A stretch of 42,887 nt of DNA from contig JAKEGG010000013.1 in assembly GCA_022615965.1 (NCBI GenBank), forward strand, positions 1 to 42,887, written 5' to 3'. A program made the position numbers and the translations under genes. A model generated the notes under the pieces. It ran no database searches, was not told where the DNA came from, and saw nothing but the letters and a program-made list of their open reading frames with translations. The stretch comes from Fusobacteriota bacterium (GTDB lineage Bacteria > Bacillota > TC1). Shown one piece after another: positions 293 to 13,911 of the stretch (positions within the stretch are counted from its first letter, which is position 1; every line of letters starts with the position of its first letter).

Positions 293-955
293 ATGATGGA
301 ATCTGTTTTAAGTCCGGTAATGATCAGTATAAAAATAGCTCTGTTGGCGACAGTATTTTCCTTTATTATTGGTACCGTTTTAGCTTATCTTTTAAGTAGA
401 AAAACCAATATATTTACTACAATAATAGAAACGATAATACTATTACCAATGATCATGCCCCCTACTATAACAGGATATATTTTACTGTTAGCTTTAAGTC
501 AAGATAGTATCATAACTCAGATAACAGGAGGAAACTCCCTGATATTTACCTGGTGGGCAGGAGTTATTGCTAGTACTCTGGTAGCTATTCCCCTGATGTA
601 TCAAAATGCTAAAGGAGGTTTCCTGAGCGTTAGTGGAAGATATGAGGATATTGGGAAAACCTTGGGTCTGACCAGAGGCAGGATAATTTTCAATATAGAT
701 CTACCCTTGATTTTTCCAGCCTTGATGAGTGGGGTGATTTTAGCCTTTGCCAGAGCCTTAGGAGAATTTGGCGCTACCTTGATGGTAGCAGGAAGTATTC
801 CTGGTAAAACCAGAACTATTGCTTCAGCAATTTTCTTTGCTGTAGAAAGCGGAGATCTAAAAACTGCTAATATTTTGTTAGTGATAATGGTAATAATTAG
901 TTTCTCTCTGATTTTTATTCTAAACTATATTCTAAAGAGAAAGAAAATAAAATAG
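293..955 (+). CDS. modB: Molybdate ABC transporter permease ModB
   Basis: This is the membrane channel subunit of a molybdate/tungstate ABC importer. The 220-residue protein has about five hydrophobic segments (roughly 8-34, 43-68, 85-105, 138-165, 192-213). The cytoplasmic EAA-type loop, which docks on the ATPase, is at about 117-145 (EDIGKTLGLTRG then DLPLIFPAL), followed by ARALGEFGATLMVAG, a stretch typical of ModB. Length is normal for the family. Two ATGs lie in tandem at 293 and 296; the GAGAGG ribosome site is 3 nt from the first and 6 nt from the second, so 296 is equally possible. It heads a modB-modC-modA operon behind a duplicated promoter. The modB-first order differs from the usual modA-modB-modC. 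Confidence 0.93.
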   Translation: MMESVLSPVMISIKIALLATVFSFIIGTVLAYLLSRKTNIFTTIIETIILLPMIMPPTITGYILLLALSQDSIITQITGGNSLIFTWWAGVIASTLVAIPLMYQNAKGGFLSVSGRYEDIGKTLGLTRGRIIFNIDLPLIFPALMSGVILAFARALGEFGATLMVAGSIPGKTRTIASAIFFAVESGDLKTANILLVIMVIISFSLIFILNYILKRKKIK

Positions 956-964
956 GTATCAGAC

Positions 965-1936
965 ATGTTGGATATAAATATTAAAAAGAAATTTAATAAT
1001 AGAGAATATCATTACCAGATCAAAACTAAGGCTAAAACCCTGGCTATCATGGGAGAAAGCGGTAGTGGCAAAACTACTTTGCTAAGGCTTTTAAGTGGAC
1101 TAATGAAGCCTGATGGTGGCTATATTTGCTATGATAACAGATTCATCTATAAATTTGGAGAAGTAAACCTCAAAACCAAAGATCGTAAGGTGGGCTATGT
1201 TTTTCAAAGTGAAAATCTTTTTCCTCATTTAACTGTTGAACAAAACCTTAAGCTAGGCTTAAAAAAAGAATCATATGGAGCAATTGTTAAATGGCTTAGC
1301 AGACTAGGATTGGTTGATAAAAAAATTAGTAAACCTGATGAACTGTCTGGAGGAGAAAAACAACGAATCGCTATCATCAGATCCTTGCTGCACAATCCAG
1401 ATTTTCTGTTTCTTGATGAAGCCTTCAATAGCCTTGATGTTGATAATAAGAGGCTTATGTATAAAGAAATCAAAGAAATATTAAAGGCTTATTCTGGCTA
1501 TACGATGCTGATTACACACGATACCAAAGAGGCTTTGAAGTTAGCTGACGAAATTTATGTGCTTAAGGAAGGTAACCTTAAAAGGGTCTATAACAATTTG
1601 ATCGAAGTGCAGATCACCGCGATAGAAAAAAGTGTCTTCGGCAATACCTTATGTGTTGGCAATGGCAAACTATCCTTTAAGGCCATGACGCTGAAGGATG
1701 AGTTCCAGATTGGAAATCAGGTGAAGGTAGAAATAAAAGCACAGGATATCAAGCTACAAGGAATTGGATCACTGGAAGGCTATAATGTCTTGTCAGTTAT
1801 AGTCATGGAGCAATTAGAAGATAGCTATTATCTTGTCGAGGCTTTGGGACATGAGTTTTTTGTCCAAGGCACAAAGCTAACTATAGGCCAAGAGCTTAAA
1901 GTATGGTTTAGCTATAAATCAGTTAATATTGTATAA
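965..1936 (+). CDS. modC: Molybdate ABC transporter ATP-binding protein ModC
   Basis: This is the ATPase that powers molybdate import. Visible motifs are Walker A GESGSGKT (30-37), Q-loop Gln81, signature LSGGE (127-131), Walker B FLFLDE (146-151) and H-loop His185. Residues from about 205 to the end form a C-terminal extension of about 120 residues, as expected for ModC/CysA-type ATPases with an oxyanion-sensing Mop/TOBE domain. At 323 residues the length is a little under the usual ModC. It starts 9 bp after modB with only a weak ribosome site (AGG), so its translation is probably coupled to modB. Confidence 0.93.
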   Translation: MLDINIKKKFNNREYHYQIKTKAKTLAIMGESGSGKTTLLRLLSGLMKPDGGYICYDNRFIYKFGEVNLKTKDRKVGYVFQSENLFPHLTVEQNLKLGLKKESYGAIVKWLSRLGLVDKKISKPDELSGGEKQRIAIIRSLLHNPDFLFLDEAFNSLDVDNKRLMYKEIKEILKAYSGYTMLITHDTKEALKLADEIYVLKEGNLKRVYNNLIEVQITAIEKSVFGNTLCVGNGKLSFKAMTLKDEFQIGNQVKVEIKAQDIKLQGIGSLEGYNVLSVIVMEQLEDSYYLVEALGHEFFVQGTKLTIGQELKVWFSYKSVNIV

Positions 1937-1959
1937 ATATATTGTTAAAGGAGGAAAAA

Positions 1960-2727
1960 ATGAAAAAAATTCTATTAATAGTATCCGCTTTATTTATGCT
2001 TATAGTTGGGTCTGGTTGTGAAAATAGCGAAAAGGAGACTCAAAAAACTGGCGTAACTATTTTAGTAGGTGCAGCTGCTAGCTTAACAGATGTTCTAAAT
2101 GAACTAGAACCAGTATTTGAAAAGGAAACAGGTATTGATTTGGATCTCCAATATGGATCTTCAGGCACATTGAAAGAGCAAATCAAAAATGGAGCTCCTA
2201 TCGATGTTTTTTTCTCTGCGTCTAAAAAAGATGTGGATGAGCTTGTTGCTGCTGGTTTACTTGCTGATGACCAGATATTATTGAAAAACCAACTTGTTTT
2301 GGTAAAAAGTAAAAGCAGCAAGGTCAAAAGTCTTGATGATCTAAGTAGTGTCCAATATATTGCTGTCGGTGACCCTGCCAGTGTGCCTGTAGGTAAATAT
2401 ACTCAAGAAGCCTTAAAGAATTTAGGTATGCTTGAGACTTTAGAGGGGAAATTTACTTACGGCAAGGATGTGACTCAGGTTTTAAGCTGGGTTGGATTAG
2501 GTAATGCAGAAGCTGGCTTCGTTTATTATTCTGATTATGTTAGAAGTGAAGGTAAGGTTGATCTGGTTGAAAAAATCGATGCCTCAAAACATTCAAAAAT
2601 AGTCTATCCTATTGGTGTGGTTAAAAACAGCCGGAAGCAGGAAGAAGCCAAGAAGTTCATAGAGTTTTTAAAAAGTGATAAAGCTAAAGCAGCATTTGAA
2701 AAATGGGGATTTAGCCTGGCTCAGTAG
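1960..2727 (+). CDS. modA: Molybdate-binding lipoprotein ModA
   Basis: This is the extracellular substrate-binding protein of the importer. The start is the ATG at 1960, 6 nt after a strong AAAGGAGG; the frame is open upstream to a TTG at 1942 but that would place the ribosome site inside the gene. The 255-residue product begins with a lipoprotein signal peptide (MKKILLI...) and lipobox VGSGC, with the lipidated Cys at residue 20. The mature part carries the ModA pattern: AAASLTDVLNEL near the start, YGSSGTLKEQI, and GAPIDVFFSAS. It ends the mod operon; 150 bp without an obvious strong terminator separate it from the next gene. Confidence 0.93.
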   Translation: MKKILLIVSALFMLIVGSGCENSEKETQKTGVTILVGAAASLTDVLNELEPVFEKETGIDLDLQYGSSGTLKEQIKNGAPIDVFFSASKKDVDELVAAGLLADDQILLKNQLVLVKSKSSKVKSLDDLSSVQYIAVGDPASVPVGKYTQEALKNLGMLETLEGKFTYGKDVTQVLSWVGLGNAEAGFVYYSDYVRSEGKVDLVEKIDASKHSKIVYPIGVVKNSRKQEEAKKFIEFLKSDKAKAAFEKWGFSLAQ

Positions 2728-5801: not shown

Positions 5802-5864
5802 GACATAAATTTTCTGGTGGGATAAAATAGTAGATAAGAAAAAATGATTTTAAGGGTGGTTGTT

Positions 5865-6137
5865 ATGAAGGACAAGCATAAGGAAAAAGAAAAAAAGGAA
5901 AAATGTAAGGGTACAAGTAAAGTTAAGAAGATAGATCAAGAGCATGCTATGGTTGCCAGCCACCCTGAGGGCCCAATGGTTGAAAGCAAGCTATGTAAGA
6001 TCATTAAAAATGGAGAGCATAAAAACAACTTAGAGGAATATAAGGGGCTGATAGACAAAGGGGAATATGTTTGTGGCAAATGTGGCAGGGTAGCTAACAG
6101 TAAAAAGAATCTTTGTAATGGTTTAAGCTTAAAGTAG
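5865..6137 (+). CDS. Small Lys-rich protein with C-terminal zinc-ribbon-like cysteines
   Basis: A 90-residue protein of unknown function. The N-terminal 25 residues are strongly basic (MKDKHKEKEKKEKCKG). The C-terminus holds CGKCG (residues 70-74) and a further Cys at 84, with another at 44, which looks like a partial zinc ribbon or knuckle. I chose the ATG at 5865 because AAGGGTGG lies 6-7 nt before it; an in-frame ATG at 5844 has no ribosome site. No signal peptide is present. It lies alone upstream of the sigma-factor gene, 67 bp away and with a separate promoter between, so co-regulation is not evident. Confidence 0.6.
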   Translation: MKDKHKEKEKKEKCKGTSKVKKIDQEHAMVASHPEGPMVESKLCKIIKNGEHKNNLEEYKGLIDKGEYVCGKCGRVANSKKNLCNGLSLK

Positions 6138-6204: not shown

Positions 6205-7845
6205 ATGAACAATAAGGATATTGCAAAAATCGTAGAAGAGGTTCAAAAGGATCCAGATAAGAATTTTGACCTTTTGTATCGAAGTACCTATAAGACAGTT
6301 TATATAATGGCTTTTTCCTACTTGAAAAATAAGGAGGATGCCGAGGATATCACTCAGGAAATTTTTGTCAAAATATATAATAATATCAGCAGCCTCAAGA
6401 ATCCAGCTGCTTTTAACAGCTGGATGAATAGAATAGTTGTTAATAGCTGTTATAGGGCTTTGGAGTATAAGAAAAAAACCAATGGGCATTTAAGGATTGA
6501 TGATGGTGATTCCTATAAGGAATATGAAAACACTAATATGACAGACATCCCAGAGCTCCATCTTGAATTAAAGGACACTCATAAGACTATTATTGAAAAT
6601 ATCAATGAGCTGCCTGTTAAGATTTCTGAGGTTTTGATGATGTACTATTTCCAGGAGCTAAAGGTCAAGACTATTGCTGAGATATTGGATATTGATGAAG
6701 CTACAGTTAAAAGCAGGCTGTTTCAGGGGCGAAAAAAGTTGAGATTGTCCTTGATGGAGTTTTATACAGGTCTTTCCAAGTTGCCGGTTATTTTCTTTGG
6801 TCAGAAGTTTATTGGCTCGGTGATCGGTAATTCTTTTGGTGAGGTAGCTGGTTCTTCGGCAGCAGCTGTTTCAGGAGCAGGTCTATTGGCTTTTCTAGCC
6901 AGGCGATTTAATGATTTCAAGTCTTCCTTTGCTGGTGTAGTTGCTGCTGGACTTTTGGTTTTGGCAATTGTGGCTGGTGCTACCTTGGGTGCTTTTAATT
7001 TAGTAGTTAACAGAAACAGAGCTGATAAAAGTTCTGTCAATAGTGCTGATAACCAAAAGCCAGTGGAAATAAGCGAGCTTAAAAAAACAGAGGAGCCAGT
7101 TAATAAGCCAGTGGAGTCTCCTGTTGTGGAATTTGGTTTTATTAGTAATGGTGGTTCTGATGATGTCCTTAGCATAGTTGATAATACTCCAGCTGATAAA
7201 AGTGGAGATGATCAGTCTCCAGGTGGTGATAATGGACAGGGTGGTGTAGAGGATCAAGATGATTCTGATGGTGAGGATGATGTAGATGAAGATGAAGATC
7301 AGGATGAGGAAGAAATAATACTTGAGTATAATACCTATGATAGGTTCCTTACAGCTTCTGTTTATAATATTTTAAAAAACTCTGGCAGGTTTTTAACTAG
7401 AGATAAATTAGATATCGTTTTAGATCTCCCGGATTTGAAGGAATGCTTAGAGGCTTTAGAACTGAAAGTGGATGCATATCATCAACACGAGGAGGATGAT
7501 GATAGCGATGATGATCATCACCATCATTATTGGAGACATTATCATTTGATTAAGTGGGATCTGGAGCTTAAGTTTAGTTATAAAAAGCATAATAATAATA
7601 AATATGAATTTGAATATTCGATTGCCAAAATCAACAATAATGCCTCTTTAATTAATATTGATCTAGATACAGATGGTAAAGCTGATTTAAATATAGATCT
7701 TGATGATGATGGCTTACCTGACTTAAATATAGATCTTGATGGAGATAGAAAAGCTGATTTAAATATAGATCTTGATGATGATGGCTATCCTGAAAAGAAT
7801 GTTGATACTGATGGCGACTGGCTAGCAGATCTGAATATTCTCTGA
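6205..7845 (+). CDS. ECF sigma factor fused to a membrane segment and exported Asp-rich repeat tail
   Basis: Residues 1-185 are a complete ECF sigma-70 factor: region 2 at about 22-90 (LKNKEDAEDITQEIF then NSWMNRIVVNSCYR) and region 4 at about 133-182 (IAEILDIDEATVKSRLFQG, a helix-turn-helix). An Ala/Gly-rich linker (205-230) leads to one strong membrane helix (242-267) and then about 280 residues that should lie outside the cell. These include a Pro/Val linker, a very acidic run (330-365), a globular-looking piece, a His/Asp cluster (about 422-445) and five 12-residue NIDLDxDGxxDL repeats (484-546) resembling calcium-binding DxDxDG loops. A usual ECF is about 180 residues and has a separate anti-sigma; here sigma and sensor-like parts are one chain. 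The ATG is preceded by AAAGG at 6 nt. The downstream surface-protein operon is a plausible target, by position only. Confidence 0.85.
   Translation: MNNKDIAKIVEEVQKDPDKNFDLLYRSTYKTVYIMAFSYLKNKEDAEDITQEIFVKIYNNISSLKNPAAFNSWMNRIVVNSCYRALEYKKKTNGHLRIDDGDSYKEYENTNMTDIPELHLELKDTHKTIIENINELPVKISEVLMMYYFQELKVKTIAEILDIDEATVKSRLFQGRKKLRLSLMEFYTGLSKLPVIFFGQKFIGSVIGNSFGEVAGSSAAAVSGAGLLAFLARRFNDFKSSFAGVVAAGLLVLAIVAGATLGAFNLVVNRNRADKSSVNSADNQKPVEISELKKTEEPVNKPVESPVVEFGFISNGGSDDVLSIVDNTPADKSGDDQSPGGDNGQGGVEDQDDSDGEDDVDEDEDQDEEEIILEYNTYDRFLTASVYNILKNSGRFLTRDKLDIVLDLPDLKECLEALELKVDAYHQHEEDDDSDDDHHHHYWRHYHLIKWDLELKFSYKKHNNNKYEFEYSIAKINNNASLINIDLDTDGKADLNIDLDDDGLPDLNIDLDGDRKADLNIDLDDDGYPEKNVDTDGDWLADLNIL
7654..7833 (+). 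repeat. Five tandem 36-bp repeats encoding Asp-rich loops
   Basis: The end of the sigma-fusion gene is five in-frame units of 36 bp (12 residues), the third and fourth also similar at the DNA level (AATATAGATCTTGATG). Each reads N-I/V-D-L/T-D-x-D-x-x-x-D/E-L/K. Spacing of the acidic residues (D-x-D-x-D-G) is that of EF-hand or thrombospondin-type-3 calcium loops. Copy number could vary between strains. Confidence 0.92.
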
Positions 7846-7878
7846 TGTATTAATAAGTATCAAATAATTTAGTTGAGT

Positions 7879-7921
7879 AGAAAGCAAAATAAGAATGAAT
7901 TATTTTGCTTTCTGCTTTTTT
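7879..7921 (+). terminator. Terminator after the sigma-fusion gene
   Basis: A 14-bp perfect stem (7879-7892 with 7900-7913; AGAAAGCAAAATAA pairing with TTATTTTGCTTTCT), a 7-nt loop and a T6 run at 7916-7921. It separates the sigma gene from the surface operon, so the two are independent transcription units. Confidence 0.85.
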
Positions 7922-8170: not shown

Positions 8171-8205
8171 TATTATTTAACAAGGTAGGAAGCTGTTAAA
8201 TAATA
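8171..8205 (+). promoter_or_regulatory. 12-bp inverted repeat just before the VWA-gene ribosome site
   Basis: TATTATTTAACA (8171-8182) pairs perfectly with TGTTAAATAATA (8194-8205) around an 11-nt loop, AGGTAGGAAGC. The right arm ends 3 nt before AAGGAAG and the ATG at 8215. There is no T-run, so it is not a terminator. As RNA it would form a hairpin abutting the ribosome site; as DNA it could be an operator. Function unknown. Confidence 0.65.
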
Positions 8206-8214
8206 AAAAGGAAG

Positions 8215-10911
8215 ATGAAAAAGTTAATTAATACCTTTGGAAAATTTATGGTGGTTTTCGGAGCCATAGTTTCGTGTTTGGTTTTTAGCACTGGGACTAT
8301 GGCTAATACTACGTATATCACTTCTCCTTATGTTGCACCTGAAACAGGTCTGCTCTTAGACAAGTCTGCTGCCACTACTGGCAACTTTAATTCTCTAGGC
8401 AGAGAAATCTACAAATTAAACTTTCAAATTGAATCTTCACCAGAACCAGCCTACACTGAAAAACTATATGACATAGTCATTGTTGTTGATACCTCAGGAA
8501 GTATGAATACTGCCTTACAGGGCTATAATCCTATTACTGCTACACCTTCAACTACTGGAAGCTATTATGTTTTCGTTGGAGGACAGTACTATCTGTTATC
8601 CTATAATTCTGGTAATAGCAAATGGTATTACACTATTAGTGGTACCACCTATTATGTTGCCTGGAGCCCTGCAGATAATTATAGTGATCTAGGAGCCCCA
8701 GGCAGCACTAATATCAATAATCCAACGCCTAAGCCTTTTTATCTCTTTACTAACTCCACCAGGCTGGAAGTTACTAAAACTGCTATAACCAATTTTATCA
8801 ATACATTATATACCAAAAATAAATCTGTAAAAATAGGAGTAGTTGAATTTAATGGTCAATTAACTTACTCTGTGTCCAATGATATCGTAAGTGGCTTACA
8901 GCCAATTCAATCGGCAGGGAGTCTGAATCCTATTTTTACAACTAATATCTATAATTTAGTAGCTGGAGGAGCTACCCATAGTAATACTGGAATTGGCCAT
9001 GCCTATGATATATTAAGGACTCAAAGCAATAATAATACCAGACCTAAAATGGTCATTATGTTTACTGATGGGGAACCTGGTAACTATGGCTTCGATGACG
9101 ACAATGGATCAAGATATGCTGCTGGTACTATGAATCAGGCTAGTCAGCTCAAGGCCGATTTTGGAACTACAGTAAATAGTAATTTTAAATTTAATTCATT
9201 AAAAGCAGATAAAATTTATGGCTATACCCATAAAACCACATTAACTTCAGACAGAGTGTTAAATGGCTACGGCTTAGGTGCTACAGTTTATACTATAGGT
9301 CTATACGGAGGAGCCCCTACAACCTTGATGAATGATTATATGAGCAGAGTATCCAGTAACTATAGCTCTACAAACACCTCTGTTGCTACTGACTACTATC
9401 AGTATTCTACAACAGCCCAAGGTTTAAATAATGCTTTCCAGAGTATAGTAAATACAACTGTCACACCAGCTGGTACCATTGGTAAAAGCTATACCAACTT
9501 AAAAGTTAAAGACTATATAGATCCAAGATTCCAGGTAGTAACCTCAACAGGAACACCACTGAACGTAGGACAGACCTTTACATCAGACGGTAAAACAGGA
9601 ACTATCATGCAGGATGCTAATGGCATCTATATTGAATGGACCATCAGTAGCCTGAGCCCAGGTTATGTAAGCTCTGGTGGAGGTTATGTTGCTTCAGCTT
9701 ATGTAATAGCTAAAGATAGCTTTATTGGAGGCAATACAGTACCAACAAATATTGCCAATACTTCAGGGGTATATACCAGTACAGGGAGCAATATAGGCTC
9801 ATTTCCGAACCCAACAGTCAATGTGCCTTTTAATTTCAGCGTGACTAATAAGGAAGAATACATCATCCTTGGACAATATCTGCCAGAGAATATGACCAGT
9901 GTTCAAACCAGTATGTATAGTCCAAGTGACACCAATATACCTGCAAATTTACTGAGCTACAGCTTTAATGAAAGCTTTAGTACCAGTACATTGATCAATA
10001 CTGATAAAAGCTATAACCTGACGGTTACAGCTGATCCACAAAACTATATTGATTTTAGCAATGGTACATTATGGACCCCTATTGCTGGAGTGGGCTATAA
10101 GAGAACTACTGGAGAAACCTATAAAAACCCTGTTGGCACATCAGCAACAACAGTTCAAAAAACTGGAACCTATACAGTCAAGCCAATAGTACCAAATCTA
10201 GAGGCCAATTCCAGAACCATTCTATATGGTGACCTGGTAGGAGTAAACCTCAAGGATCTGATCGAAATAAGCTTGACCAGACCATCTGGTATCGTGGATG
10301 CTAACTGGAACAGACTAAATAGTGAGCTAGCTGCCTATTGGAGCAATATGCTGGCAACCTATACTTCTGCTGAAGAGCCGGCAACAAGGAGCAATACTGA
10401 CCTGGCAGGCTATGAGCCTCTCAATATTTATGGAGATAATAGCAGTCCTTTGACCTTACATGGGGACTTTACTCAAAATGGGATTACCATAGCCACTAAT
10501 ATCCAGCCCAATATCTTTGTGGTACCAGCACAGCTATCAATAACTAAAACAGTTAATACAGGCACAACAGATCAAGGCTTTATCTTCTATGTTTACAGAG
10601 CAGGACAACTGATAACCAAGGTAGCTTTAAAGGATTCAGAAACTGTTATTTTAAATAATCTGAAAAAAGGTCAATACACGATACAAGAGGATACTAACTG
10701 GTCCTGGAGATATGCTGTAACTGGAGCTAATCCTAAGATAGTCAACACCCAAAATGCAGTTTTAAGTCAAGGCTTGAATAATGATATTGGCACAATCGAC
10801 AATACTATTGCCAATGTAAACTTTATTAATTCTAAAATCAATGATAAATGGCTAAGCGCCACTGATCAGATAAATAATAAATTAGTAAATCAGACATGGG
10901 TAGGTGATTAA
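8215..10911 (+). CDS. Secreted VWA-domain protein with SpaA-like C-terminal domain
   Basis: An 898-residue exported protein. A Sec signal peptide occupies about residues 1-30. The VWA domain starts at about 85 with DIVIVVDTSGSMN, giving the MIDAS metal site D92-x-S94-x-S96, and continues to FTDGEPG near 282. Between the MIDAS strand and the next helix is an unusual Tyr-rich insertion of about 80 residues (108-180). The middle is Ser/Thr/Asn-rich. Residues about 770-870 (LSITKTVNTG... LKKGQYTIQED) look like a SpaA/Cna-B prealbumin-like domain of the kind that forms isopeptide bonds. No LPXTG motif or C-terminal membrane helix is present, so anchoring must be by a partner. It is the first gene of an operon with TasA-like proteins and SipW, and the next gene starts one base after its stop. 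Confidence 0.8.
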   Translation: MKKLINTFGKFMVVFGAIVSCLVFSTGTMANTTYITSPYVAPETGLLLDKSAATTGNFNSLGREIYKLNFQIESSPEPAYTEKLYDIVIVVDTSGSMNTALQGYNPITATPSTTGSYYVFVGGQYYLLSYNSGNSKWYYTISGTTYYVAWSPADNYSDLGAPGSTNINNPTPKPFYLFTNSTRLEVTKTAITNFINTLYTKNKSVKIGVVEFNGQLTYSVSNDIVSGLQPIQSAGSLNPIFTTNIYNLVAGGATHSNTGIGHAYDILRTQSNNNTRPKMVIMFTDGEPGNYGFDDDNGSRYAAGTMNQASQLKADFGTTVNSNFKFNSLKADKIYGYTHKTTLTSDRVLNGYGLGATVYTIGLYGGAPTTLMNDYMSRVSSNYSSTNTSVATDYYQYSTTAQGLNNAFQSIVNTTVTPAGTIGKSYTNLKVKDYIDPRFQVVTSTGTPLNVGQTFTSDGKTGTIMQDANGIYIEWTISSLSPGYVSSGGGYVASAYVIAKDSFIGGNTVPTNIANTSGVYTSTGSNIGSFPNPTVNVPFNFSVTNKEEYIILGQYLPENMTSVQTSMYSPSDTNIPANLLSYSFNESFSTSTLINTDKSYNLTVTADPQNYIDFSNGTLWTPIAGVGYKRTTGETYKNPVGTSATTVQKTGTYTVKPIVPNLEANSRTILYGDLVGVNLKDLIEISLTRPSGIVDANWNRLNSELAAYWSNMLATYTSAEEPATRSNTDLAGYEPLNIYGDNSSPLTLHGDFTQNGITIATNIQPNIFVVPAQLSITKTVNTGTTDQGFIFYVYRAGQLITKVALKDSETVILNNLKKGQYTIQEDTNWSWRYAVTGANPKIVNTQNAVLSQGLNNDIGTIDNTIANVNFINSKINDKWLSATDQINNKLVNQTWVGD

Positions 10912-10912
10912 A

Positions 10913-11428
10913 ATGAAAAAGAAGAAAACTTTGATCATCATAATAATCCTGTTTATCTTAAATACTTTGGTTGCTGTTTCCACTACGATTGCCTATTTGG
11001 TGGCTTCACCAAGTAAGAACAATGTTCTGGTCAAACCAGATCCAATGGTCACTATTACTGAAACCTTAAGTCAGGAAAAAATAGTTTCAGTAAGAAATGA
11101 CAGTAATTTTACAGCATATGTAAGAGTGGCTTTAGTAGTTGATTATCGATCGATTAGCAATAGTCAGATGATTATACCAGCTGAAAATGATGTTAACTAT
11201 ATACTTGATACCAACTGGGATATATTATGGGATTTAAATGGCAATTACTATTACTACACCATACCACTGGCCCCTGGTGAAAGCTCCAGCATCCTCCTAA
11301 GAGACGTTGAGCTAAAACCTGGAAAATCAGTGCCGGCGGGCTATCAGCTTGAAGTAGTAGTATTAGCTGATCTGATCCAAGCTGATCCTGTTAATGGGGT
11401 AACAGAATCTTGGGGGGTAACACCATAA
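10913..11428 (+). CDS. TasA/camelysin-like secreted protein 1
   Basis: A 171-residue protein with a Lys-rich start and hydrophobic segment (residues 6-28) ending in STTIAYLVAS, the type of signal peptide processed by SipW in the TasA/CalY (camelysin) group. The mature part is beta-rich and has the repeating logic of these proteins: SVRNDSNFTAYVRVALVVDY and PLAPGESSSILLRDV. Start at the ATG 10913, with AGGTG 6 nt upstream inside the end of the VWA gene; the start lies one base after that gene's stop, so translation is probably coupled. It is the most divergent of the three such proteins here and could be a minor or capping subunit; that role is inferred. Confidence 0.7.
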   Translation: MKKKKTLIIIIILFILNTLVAVSTTIAYLVASPSKNNVLVKPDPMVTITETLSQEKIVSVRNDSNFTAYVRVALVVDYRSISNSQMIIPAENDVNYILDTNWDILWDLNGNYYYYTIPLAPGESSSILLRDVELKPGKSVPAGYQLEVVVLADLIQADPVNGVTESWGVTP

Positions 11429-11471
11429 GATTATTAAATAAAATAAATATATTTTGAAAGGAAGATGAATT

Positions 11472-12071
11472 TTGAAAGAAAAGAAAAAATTATTATTAGG
11501 AGTAGCTTTTGCCTTGTTGTTGATCGTGGCTTCAGTATCACTTACTGTTGCTTACTTCACTCAGACAACTGCTGAAAAAATCAACGTATTTACTTTAGGC
11601 ACAGTTTCAGCTACTTTAACAGAGCCTAACTTCGAGGCTTTAACTGCAGAACAAAAAGTATTAGTACCAAGCAGGATCATTCCTAAAGACCCTACTGTAA
11701 CAATTGGTGCTAACAGCGAGGAAGTATATGCTAGAGTATTTGTTAAAATCGAAACAGACTTTTTAAATGCTATTGATACAACTGCTGGATTTACAACACC
11801 TAATTCAGGCTGGAGTCTTTTTGGTACAACAGTATCTGGAGATTACACAATCATAGAATATAGATTTTCTACTATAGTTGGTAAGGCAACAACAGATCAA
11901 GAATTACCTCAAGTATTTGAACAATTGAAAATCAAAAATTCAGCTACAACTACTGATATAAGTGCTATCAATGATCCAAATATCAAAGTAATAGCTCAAA
12001 TCGTTCAGGTTGAAAGTTTTGCTGATGCTACCGCAGCCTTTACTGCAGTTGGCAGACCTGCTGGCTATTAG
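11472..12071 (+). CDS. TasA/camelysin-like secreted protein 2
   Basis: A 199-residue protein starting at TTG 11472, placed by AAAGGAAG 7 nt upstream; an ATG at 11465 is in another frame. The N-terminus has a basic head and hydrophobic stretch (7-26) followed by TVAYFTQTTAEKINVFTLGTV, which closely follows the TasA/CalY pattern around the SipW cleavage site. The mature domain includes PKDPTVTIGANSEEVYARVFVKI, the region conserved in this family. Proteins of this group form extracellular fibres in biofilms of Bacillus. It is the best fibre-subunit candidate of the operon. Confidence 0.8.
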   Translation: MKEKKKLLLGVAFALLLIVASVSLTVAYFTQTTAEKINVFTLGTVSATLTEPNFEALTAEQKVLVPSRIIPKDPTVTIGANSEEVYARVFVKIETDFLNAIDTTAGFTTPNSGWSLFGTTVSGDYTIIEYRFSTIVGKATTDQELPQVFEQLKIKNSATTTDISAINDPNIKVIAQIVQVESFADATAAFTAVGRPAGY

Positions 12072-12088
12072 GAATAAGGAGCTAAAAA

Positions 12089-12715
12089 ATGAAAAAATCA
12101 AAAAAAACCCTATTATTACTACTAAGTATTTTTTCTGTTGTAGCAATTACAGCAAGTTTAACCATAGCCTGGTTCAGTGCTCAGGATACAGCTACCAATA
12201 TTGCCACTATGGGCAATATGGATGTTGAGATTACAGAGTCATCTACAGAACCAGATGCAGTAATAACTGAAAATGGTATTACCTACACTGATCCTCGTAT
12301 GCCTGGCGACTCATTATCAAAAGTAATAAGAGCAGTCAATACTGGTAATCAGGAGCTATACATCAGATTTGTGGTAACTAAGGCCTGGTACGATGCTGAT
12401 ACAGGCTTAGTAGCTCCAGGAACTGATCCAAGCTTTATTGAACTATTGAATATCGATGCCAGCAAATATGTTGTAGTAACTGAAGGAAATACCACTTACT
12501 ACTATTTAAAGGCTCCATTAGCTGCAGGAGCAACAGATATGTTATTTGACTCCTTTAAAATAGCTGAGGCTACAACCAATGCCCATATAGGCCTGCAAGC
12601 CAGGATAATGGTAACTACAGATGCTGTCCAATATGACCATGGTGTAGATGCAGTAGCAGCCCAAGGCTGGCATGTTCATGTAGATGCTATTACTTTAGAG
12701 CTAACCAGTAATTAA
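12089..12715 (+). CDS. TasA/camelysin-like secreted protein 3
   Basis: A 208-residue paralogue of the two preceding proteins. AAGGAG lies 7 nt before the ATG. The signal region (7-28) ends in SLTIAWFSAQDTATNIATMG, and the mature part has DPRMPGDSLSKVIRAVNTGNQELYIRFVV, matching the family layout of a beta-sandwich with conserved PGD and N-rich turns. It ends LELTSN with no anchor. Presence of three paralogues plus a dedicated signal peptidase suggests a multi-subunit surface fibre. Confidence 0.78.
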   Translation: MKKSKKTLLLLLSIFSVVAITASLTIAWFSAQDTATNIATMGNMDVEITESSTEPDAVITENGITYTDPRMPGDSLSKVIRAVNTGNQELYIRFVVTKAWYDADTGLVAPGTDPSFIELLNIDASKYVVVTEGNTTYYYLKAPLAAGATDMLFDSFKIAEATTNAHIGLQARIMVTTDAVQYDHGVDAVAAQGWHVHVDAITLELTSN

Positions 12716-12758
12716 TTAGCTAAAAATATCGGAAGTCATGAGAGAAAGGAGAAGAGAA

Positions 12759-13430
12759 ATGAAAAAAACTGTCATTAAAGTAATAGTTGCTGCTATTATG
12801 CTCTTTTTCCTTTCTTTCCCAGCTTCTGTATTAGCTGCCAGTAATGTTGTCTTTGAAGGGGAAAGTGATAGGTTTGTTTTTATTCCAGGCAATAAGGATT
12901 TGTTCCAAAACTTTAAGGGCATGCTTCCAGGTGAACGTAGAACTCAAGAGGTAGTGGTAAAAAACAATTCATTACGTACACTAGACTACTATATGAAAGT
13001 AGTTGATCACCCTGATTTAAATGATGGTTTAGATATTTACCGAGAAGAATTGATGAACCTGATGCTTATGAATATGAACTTTAGCAATGGTATAAGTTAT
13101 AGTGGTACCTTCAAGGATGCTACTACAACCAACAATGTCAATAATAAAGAGAAGTATAAGGAAGGCTATTTTTACCTAACTACCTTAGGTCCTGGTCAAA
13201 GCATGAATATAGATCTGGAACTTTATGCACCAGGTGAAACCTTTGATCAAAGGTTTAATAATCTGGCAGTCTATATTGATTGGCACTTTTATGTTGAGGA
13301 AGATCAAGATAGTGTGATTGTTAAAATACCTCAAACTGGAGGTTATATCATTGTATTAGCAGGTGTTATGATATTAAGTATAGGCATTATAGTGCTATTA
13401 AAAAATAAAAGGGATAGGGAAGATGCTTAA
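12759..13430 (+). CDS. Cell-surface protein with IPQTG sorting signal
   Basis: A 223-residue exported protein. The ATG at 12759 follows AAAGGAG by 7 nt; an upstream in-frame ATG (12738) is not needed. A classic Sec signal peptide (MKKTVIKV... FPASVLAAS) differs from the SipW-type signals of its neighbours. The mature part has a beta-sandwich feel (PGERRTQEVVVKNNS, GPGQSMNIDLELYAPG). The C-terminus is a complete cell-wall sorting signal: IPQTGG (190-195), a hydrophobic helix and the basic tail KNKRDREDA. It is the only wall-anchored member of the operon, so it may tether the fibre. No sortase gene is in the window. Its end overlaps the start of sipW by 8 bp. Confidence 0.78.
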   Translation: MKKTVIKVIVAAIMLFFLSFPASVLAASNVVFEGESDRFVFIPGNKDLFQNFKGMLPGERRTQEVVVKNNSLRTLDYYMKVVDHPDLNDGLDIYREELMNLMLMNMNFSNGISYSGTFKDATTTNNVNNKEKYKEGYFYLTTLGPGQSMNIDLELYAPGETFDQRFNNLAVYIDWHFYVEEDQDSVIVKIPQTGGYIIVLAGVMILSIGIIVLLKNKRDREDA

Positions 13431-13911
13431 ATTTTTGAAAGTAATTACTAATATAGTGGTTTTAGCCTTGTTTATATTAATAACATTTTTTATCTTGGCA
13501 CCTTTTTTTGGCTTAAAGCTTTATGCAGTAGTAAGTGGCAGCATGGAGCCTGGTATACCAGTTGGAGCCTTGGCAGCAGCCAGGACAGTGCCGGCTGAAG
13601 AAATCATTGCCGGTGATGTGATCACCTTTTATGTTAACCCAGGTAGCGATACAGTAGCTACTCATAGAGTAGTTGAGGTCAATAAAGCTGAAGGTTCCTT
13701 TAAAACCAAAGGTGATAGTAATGAGGCTGCCGATATCAACCCGGTCAAGTACTCTCAATTACTAGGAAGAGTTCAGTTTTCCTTGCCCTACTTAGGCTAC
13801 TTTTACTATTTTCTAGGAACTATGATCGGCAAGATCACCATGATCATTGTTTTTTTATCCTTGATTATCTTGTCAGTTCTTTTAGAAAAACTCATTGAAA
13901 AAAGAGAATAG
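13423..13911 (+). CDS. sipW: SipW-type (ER-type) signal peptidase I
   Basis: A 162-residue membrane signal peptidase that should cleave the signal peptides of the TasA-like proteins encoded just upstream. Membrane helices lie at about 6-32 and 125-155. The catalytic Ser is in VVSGSMEPGI (Ser40) and the general base is His81 in ATHRVVEV, where ordinary bacterial signal peptidases have Lys; this Ser/His pair marks the ER/archaeal/SipW class. GDVITFY and the later KGDSNEAAD (GDxN) box are also in place. It overlaps the anchor gene by 8 bp, so it is the last gene of the operon. Confidence 0.9.
   Translation: MLKFLKVITNIVVLALFILITFFILAPFFGLKLYAVVSGSMEPGIPVGALAAARTVPAEEIIAGDVITFYVNPGSDTVATHRVVEVNKAEGSFKTKGDSNEAADINPVKYSQLLGRVQFSLPYLGYFYYFLGTMIGKITMIIVFLSLIILSVLLEKLIEKRE

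Follow-up and report, generated by a model that had tools for sequence, protein, structure and literature searches.

As a rule, sigma factors of the ECF type depend on an anti-sigma protein in the membrane that is a molecule of its own, whereas the gene described here appears to put sensor and sigma factor on one chain. The gene is located in a stretch of 42,887 nucleotides from a Fusobacteriota bacterium, which as a whole is called the window. It raises the question of whether such a chain is a single intact protein, and how its sigma domain could be held silent and then released. The features identified are collected in Table 1.

Table 1. Features of the sigma gene and of the genes downstream of it, with positions in the window.
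Feature	Position	Strand	Basis
ECF sigma factor, membrane helix and acidic tail, 546 aa	6205..7845	+	ORF, coding bias
Sigma part, residues 1-185	6205..6759	+	Pfam, PDB matches SigW/RpoE/SigH, conserved columns
Linker, residues 186-241 (56 residues), partly hydrophobic, Ser/Ala/Gly-rich	6760..6927	+	
Membrane helix, residues 242-264	6928..6996	+	hydropathy, insertion-energy scan
C-terminal tail, residues 265-546 (282 residues), predicted outside	6997..7842	+	
Acidic run, residues 349-370	7249..7314	+	sequence
His/Asp cluster, residues 426-447	7480..7545	+	sequence
Five 12-residue repeats NIDLDxDGxxDL, residues 484-543	7654..7833	+	
Intrinsic terminator, strong, 18-pair stem and T run	7875..7917	+	directly after sigma gene
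VWA protein	8215-10911	+	Pfam/NCBIfam, sequence
TasA/CalY-like small proteins	10904-12715	+	Pfam/NCBIfam, sequence
IPQTG-anchored protein	12738-13430	+	Pfam/NCBIfam, sequence
SipW-type signal peptidase	13423-13911	+	Pfam/NCBIfam, sequence

The reading frame is a single intact one, in which an ATG at 6205, preceded at 5 nt by a ribosome-binding site (AAAGG), opens 546 codons that end with the stop at 7845. Codon scoring over consecutive 300-nt segments placed frame 0 clearly first in every segment, including codons 150-300. As the coding bias continues through the fusion, a frameshift join is unlikely, and the misjoining or frameshifting of two genes near codons 190-240, a doubt raised in the first-pass annotation, is not supported, frame 0 being best throughout. 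The gene for sigma domain, helix and tail is real, intact and unusual; its function is what we infer below.

The sigma part matched Sigma70_r2 at residues 24-90 (2.6e-12) and Sigma70_r4_2 at residues 133-179 (3.1e-13), both well above the Pfam cut-off, and no sigma3 domain was present, which is the domain content of the ECF (group 4) sigma factors. The best PDB match was SigW (5wuq), across residues 7-184. When 12 relatives were aligned, the four invariant columns (D48, Q51, E52 and L179) were kept, as were the nearly invariant W73 and N80. Given these conserved columns, neither region 2 nor region 4 looks dead, which speaks against the second doubt raised with the annotation; with the intact frame, the two Pfam regions and the helix, its claim of a whole ECF sigma factor joined to a membrane helix in one chain is upheld. 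This is the sole clear ECF-type sigma factor found in the ∼80%-complete genome.

Between the sigma domain and the helix, the linker contains no Cys and no anti-sigma domain recognised by Pfam, so that a zinc-finger anti-sigma domain of the ECF52 type was not found before the helix. The whole protein has only two Cys, Cys82 and Cys414, and accordingly no zinc-type anti-sigma domain. Membrane insertion was estimated on an approximate energy scale calibrated on proteins of the window (APC transporter segments from -2.4 to +1.1, the weakest at +1.06; SipW, -4.0; FtsH, -2.9; a soluble enzyme gave a false minimum at +0.56). On this scale the segment 242-264 was the only strongly hydrophobic one, with a predicted energy of -1.9 kcal/mol, and a weaker segment at residues 215-235 reached +1.3 (+1.29). 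The positive charges are equal on both flanks of the main helix, therefore the topology is undecided by charge. If the sigma domain is cytoplasmic, a single helix would place the tail outside and two helices would place it inside. The topology proposed in the annotation stands as regards one confident helix, and its external tail is a prediction. A sigma domain followed by a membrane helix in the same chain is seen likewise in G005, a genome of the same family.

These observations support a membrane-tethered, one-piece ECF sigma factor. By analogy with IutY, and with about even confidence, we propose a one-chain transmembrane sigma factor that is released by regulated intramembrane proteolysis. 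The helix would anchor a cytoplasmic, N-terminal sigma domain to the membrane, and the acidic, repeat-bearing tail would be exposed outside, where it would serve either as the sensor or as a plug under the control of proteases. Upon a signal the tail would be trimmed or cut, after which a site-2 (RseP-type) protease would cut within the membrane and free the sigma domain for RNA polymerase. Candidates for the silencing are the tethering itself or the hydrophobic linker packing on the sigma domain. The outside tail, the silencing by tethering and the proteolytic release are the steps that we infer; we can only guess at the signal (a divalent cation or a condition at the surface) and at the genes controlled (the sigma gene itself and the SipW operon).

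The proposal is favoured by the intact regions 2 and 4, the one confident helix, the continuous coding bias, the lack of any other clear ECF-type sigma factor in the genome as far as it is complete, the terminator of the gene's own and the lack of an adjacent anti-sigma gene above the family cut-off, as well as by the sister sigma domain of G005, which is also followed by a membrane helix. A site-2 protease (PF02163) is encoded in this genome and in all 9 relatives of the class, which is weak evidence since such proteases occurred in all genomes searched. Against it stand the linker in which no anti-sigma domain is recognisable, the equal flanking charges together with the weak stretch 215-235, which leaves a two-helix hairpin possible, and the broken state of the G005 copy and the four genomes of the genus in which the gene is missing.

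Fusions of a sigma factor with a membrane segment are already known elsewhere; for this version with its tail, no match was obtained among about 400 related genomes. IutY of Pseudomonas putida (ECF243) is a single polypeptide of a sigma factor and a periplasmic domain that is activated by Prc and RseP, the latter acting only once the outer part has been shortened to ∼50 residues (PMC5411451). The tail described here would need trimming from 282 to ∼50 residues in the same way before a site-2 cut. In both proteins one chain joins an ECF sigma domain in the cytoplasm to a membrane segment and to a domain on the outer side (a topology that is predicted here), and release by RseP is known for IutY (PMC5411451). 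They differ in that the outer part of IutY is a cell-surface-signalling anti-sigma domain that cooperates with a receptor of the Gram-negative outer membrane, whereas the window protein has an acidic, repeat-bearing tail with no FecR-type match and no receptor gene as a neighbour. The ECF48, ECF52 and ECF53 proteins of Actinobacteria are membrane fusions for which proteolytic activation is likewise predicted (PMC8999054); ECF52 (SCO4117) and ECF48/ECF53 resemble the window protein in having an ECF sigma domain, a membrane helix and a long external extension, with proteolytic activation proposed (PMC5826349, PMC8999054). ECF52, restricted to Actinobacteria, differs by its zinc finger and by a carbohydrate-binding domain after a Pro-rich stretch, none of which is present here.

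Several WD40 ECF sigma factors of Planctomycetes have a Ser/Ala/Gly-rich stretch and then a helix, which the linker and helix of the window protein may resemble. They carry a large C-terminal repeat extension, and some have been recovered in detergent-soluble fractions (PMC8567305); the window protein differs in having no WD40 repeats. That recovery, together with the lack of a recognisable anti-sigma domain, lends some weight to a sigma factor that is never cut and instead recruits RNA polymerase at the membrane, with a ligand of the tail altering the sigma domain through the helix. We consider this unlikely, as IutY, the studied precedent, works by cleavage, and a single helix would transmit ligand binding poorly without oligomerisation. 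A rather unlikely arrangement is a hairpin of the segments 215-235 and 242-264, which would leave the tail in the cytoplasm, where it might inhibit its own sigma domain by mimicking nucleic acid or might sense metal. The energy of the first segment is close to that of the weakest APC transporter segments, the flanking charges would allow it and a tail with a charge of -52 could mimic DNA, but the membrane propensity of 215-235 is poor and the short loop would place R, R and K outside.

In the proteolytic release that we prefer, the tail would be the sensor or the plug. From residue 273 it contains 76 D/E and has a net charge of -52. The acidic run and the His/Asp cluster described in the annotation are present, and of its DxDxDG repeats only three of the five, at 12-residue spacing, keep the strict motif; the external position of these features is predicted. 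The 12-residue DxDxDGxxD spacing resembles the calcium loops of thrombospondin type 3 (TSP3) and EF-hand-like proteins, from which the tail differs in the two repeats without the strict motif and in having no profile match to these calcium-binding families (Pfam, E up to 10). Calcium or metal binding by the tail is thus putative and is suggested by motif resemblance. CorE is soluble and has a short Cys-rich domain, whereas the window protein has the membrane helix and only Cys82 and Cys414. CorE-type sigma factors (ECF44/ECF238) are comparable in that they bear a metal-responsive C-terminal extension of their own (PMC8103513), a response that is putative here.

No relative of the tail turned up in any library or genome searched. 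Residues 273-546 matched neither FecR nor any other Pfam domain at E up to 10, no carbohydrate-binding domain or WD40 repeat was found in the tail with Pfam, and the PDB gave no match to it. Among 398 genomes of the phylum, neither the tail protein nor the repeat, searched as a degenerate DNA pattern, matched anything beyond the genome of origin. BLAST, whose low-complexity filter may hide repeats, returned nothing for the repeat alone in plasmids, phages and viral contigs, and nothing for the whole protein in viral contigs. Single-sequence structure prediction gave no confident fold (pLDDT 39 and 37). At the DNA level, the DxDxDG coding stretch (7654-7838) is a 36/72-nt tandem repeat, and the number of repeats may accordingly differ among strains.

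Downstream of the sigma gene, surface-fibre-type genes together span 8215..13911 on the same strand. We consider it improbable that the acidic, DxDxDG-bearing tail responds, from outside the cell, to calcium or some other divalent ion and thereby switches on this neighbouring SipW-dependent, TasA-like operon. The link to TasA/SipW operons suggested in the annotation was not borne out: the adjacency occurs in one genome only, the terminator separates the sigma gene from the operon, no promoter motif shared by the sigma gene and the VWA/SipW operon exceeded the shuffled expectation, and a membrane-fused sigma gene was absent from every SipW locus retrieved from other genomes. Co-regulation is a guess from adjacency. 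Just before the VWA start at 8215, a perfect 12-bp inverted repeat (TATTATTTAACA, 11 nt, TGTTAAATAATA) at 8171-8205 was observed, a site that resembles an operator or an RNA hairpin. The stretch 5844-6137, immediately before the sigma gene, encodes a zinc-ribbon-like protein of 97 aa (CxxC ... C) that matched no family above cut-off.

A SipW-type peptidase is located at the same place in G002, a genome of the same genus (locus L057, 9603-10097), without substrates of the TasA/VWA type; it adjoins HD, pyrophosphatase, transporter, TilS and FtsH genes, and neither VWA/TasA nor sigma genes are present. The molybdate transporter and YedF genes to the left of the sigma gene are located elsewhere in the relatives examined, and the VWA protein had no match in 100 other genomes. 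Given these three observations, the sigma and fibre genes form a stretch specific to this species among the genomes compared. The modBCA genes for molybdate transport (window 293-2727) lie 3.5 kb from the sigma gene; in G005, its broken relative follows directly after moeA, moaA, moaC, MOSC and mog, named by reading the proteins (L037, 4572-10067). Molybdenum neighbours at both loci are possibly a coincidence or an ancestral location.

Some Lachnospiraceae may carry fusions of a sigma domain and a helix. Of the 54 distinct sigma-like frames compared, a set biased towards matches to this sigma domain that includes the longest among the matches listed and is not a census of the phylum, only two, the window gene and its G005 relative, continue beyond the sigma domain into a membrane-like segment. 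The linker and helix as a query against 398 genomes gave, beyond the own genome, one short match to an ordinary sigma region 4, and a related-locus search of genome contigs found only a distant ordinary sigma factor. The search for the combined architecture advised in the annotation therefore had a divided outcome, with the sigma-helix layout recurring in the broken G005 relative and the acidic tail in no other genome searched. A 536-aa ECF sigma factor with a long C-terminal domain and no membrane helix was seen in G030 (L038, 4020-5630).

The sigma domains of the window gene and G005 grouped at 96/74 in a tree in which G005 is a long branch, and at 100/94 in a second tree, where several of the longest branches were left out and the window sequence itself was present twice. 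In G005 the sigma domain and helix are followed by a different outer domain in another frame; the two tails aligned no better than shuffles, and the G005 tail as a query matched only itself. This would fit one ancestral membrane-fused sigma factor with a fast-changing outer part, a thin case that rests on two sequences. Two lesions break the G005 copy, a TGA in frame near codon 15 and, past the helix, a frameshift. Its neighbours on that stretch are of full length, which favours decay over poor sequence, and an assembly error is also possible.

With this broken copy and with no sigma gene in four other genomes of the genus, the gene is dispensable. These losses, and a tail with low-complexity runs that is unlike anything else, are also what a relic would leave, namely a once-functional membrane sigma factor decaying in the family, with signalling lost and the tail drifting by repeat expansion. 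Such decay is quite improbable for the window copy, which keeps an intact frame of 546 codons, the conserved residues of the sigma domain, a ribosome-binding site and a terminator, and shows a strong coding bias. An artefact by frameshift or misassembly could be suspected because the assembly of 1.08 Mb is fragmented into 63 contigs and only 79.8% complete, but it is very improbable, as one frame is best throughout, the G005 relative has the same sigma-helix layout and the GC content of the gene equals that of its neighbours.

Such fusions are described in Proteobacteria, Actinobacteria and Planctomycetes, and the present protein is a further case from beyond these groups. A chain of sensor and sigma factor with no recognisable anti-sigma domain would offer a way to ask if tethering is enough to silence a sigma factor, and how small an external tail can be and still gate its release. 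If the tail does sense an ion and the SipW operon is the target, sensor, transducer and transcription factor would be combined in one molecule.
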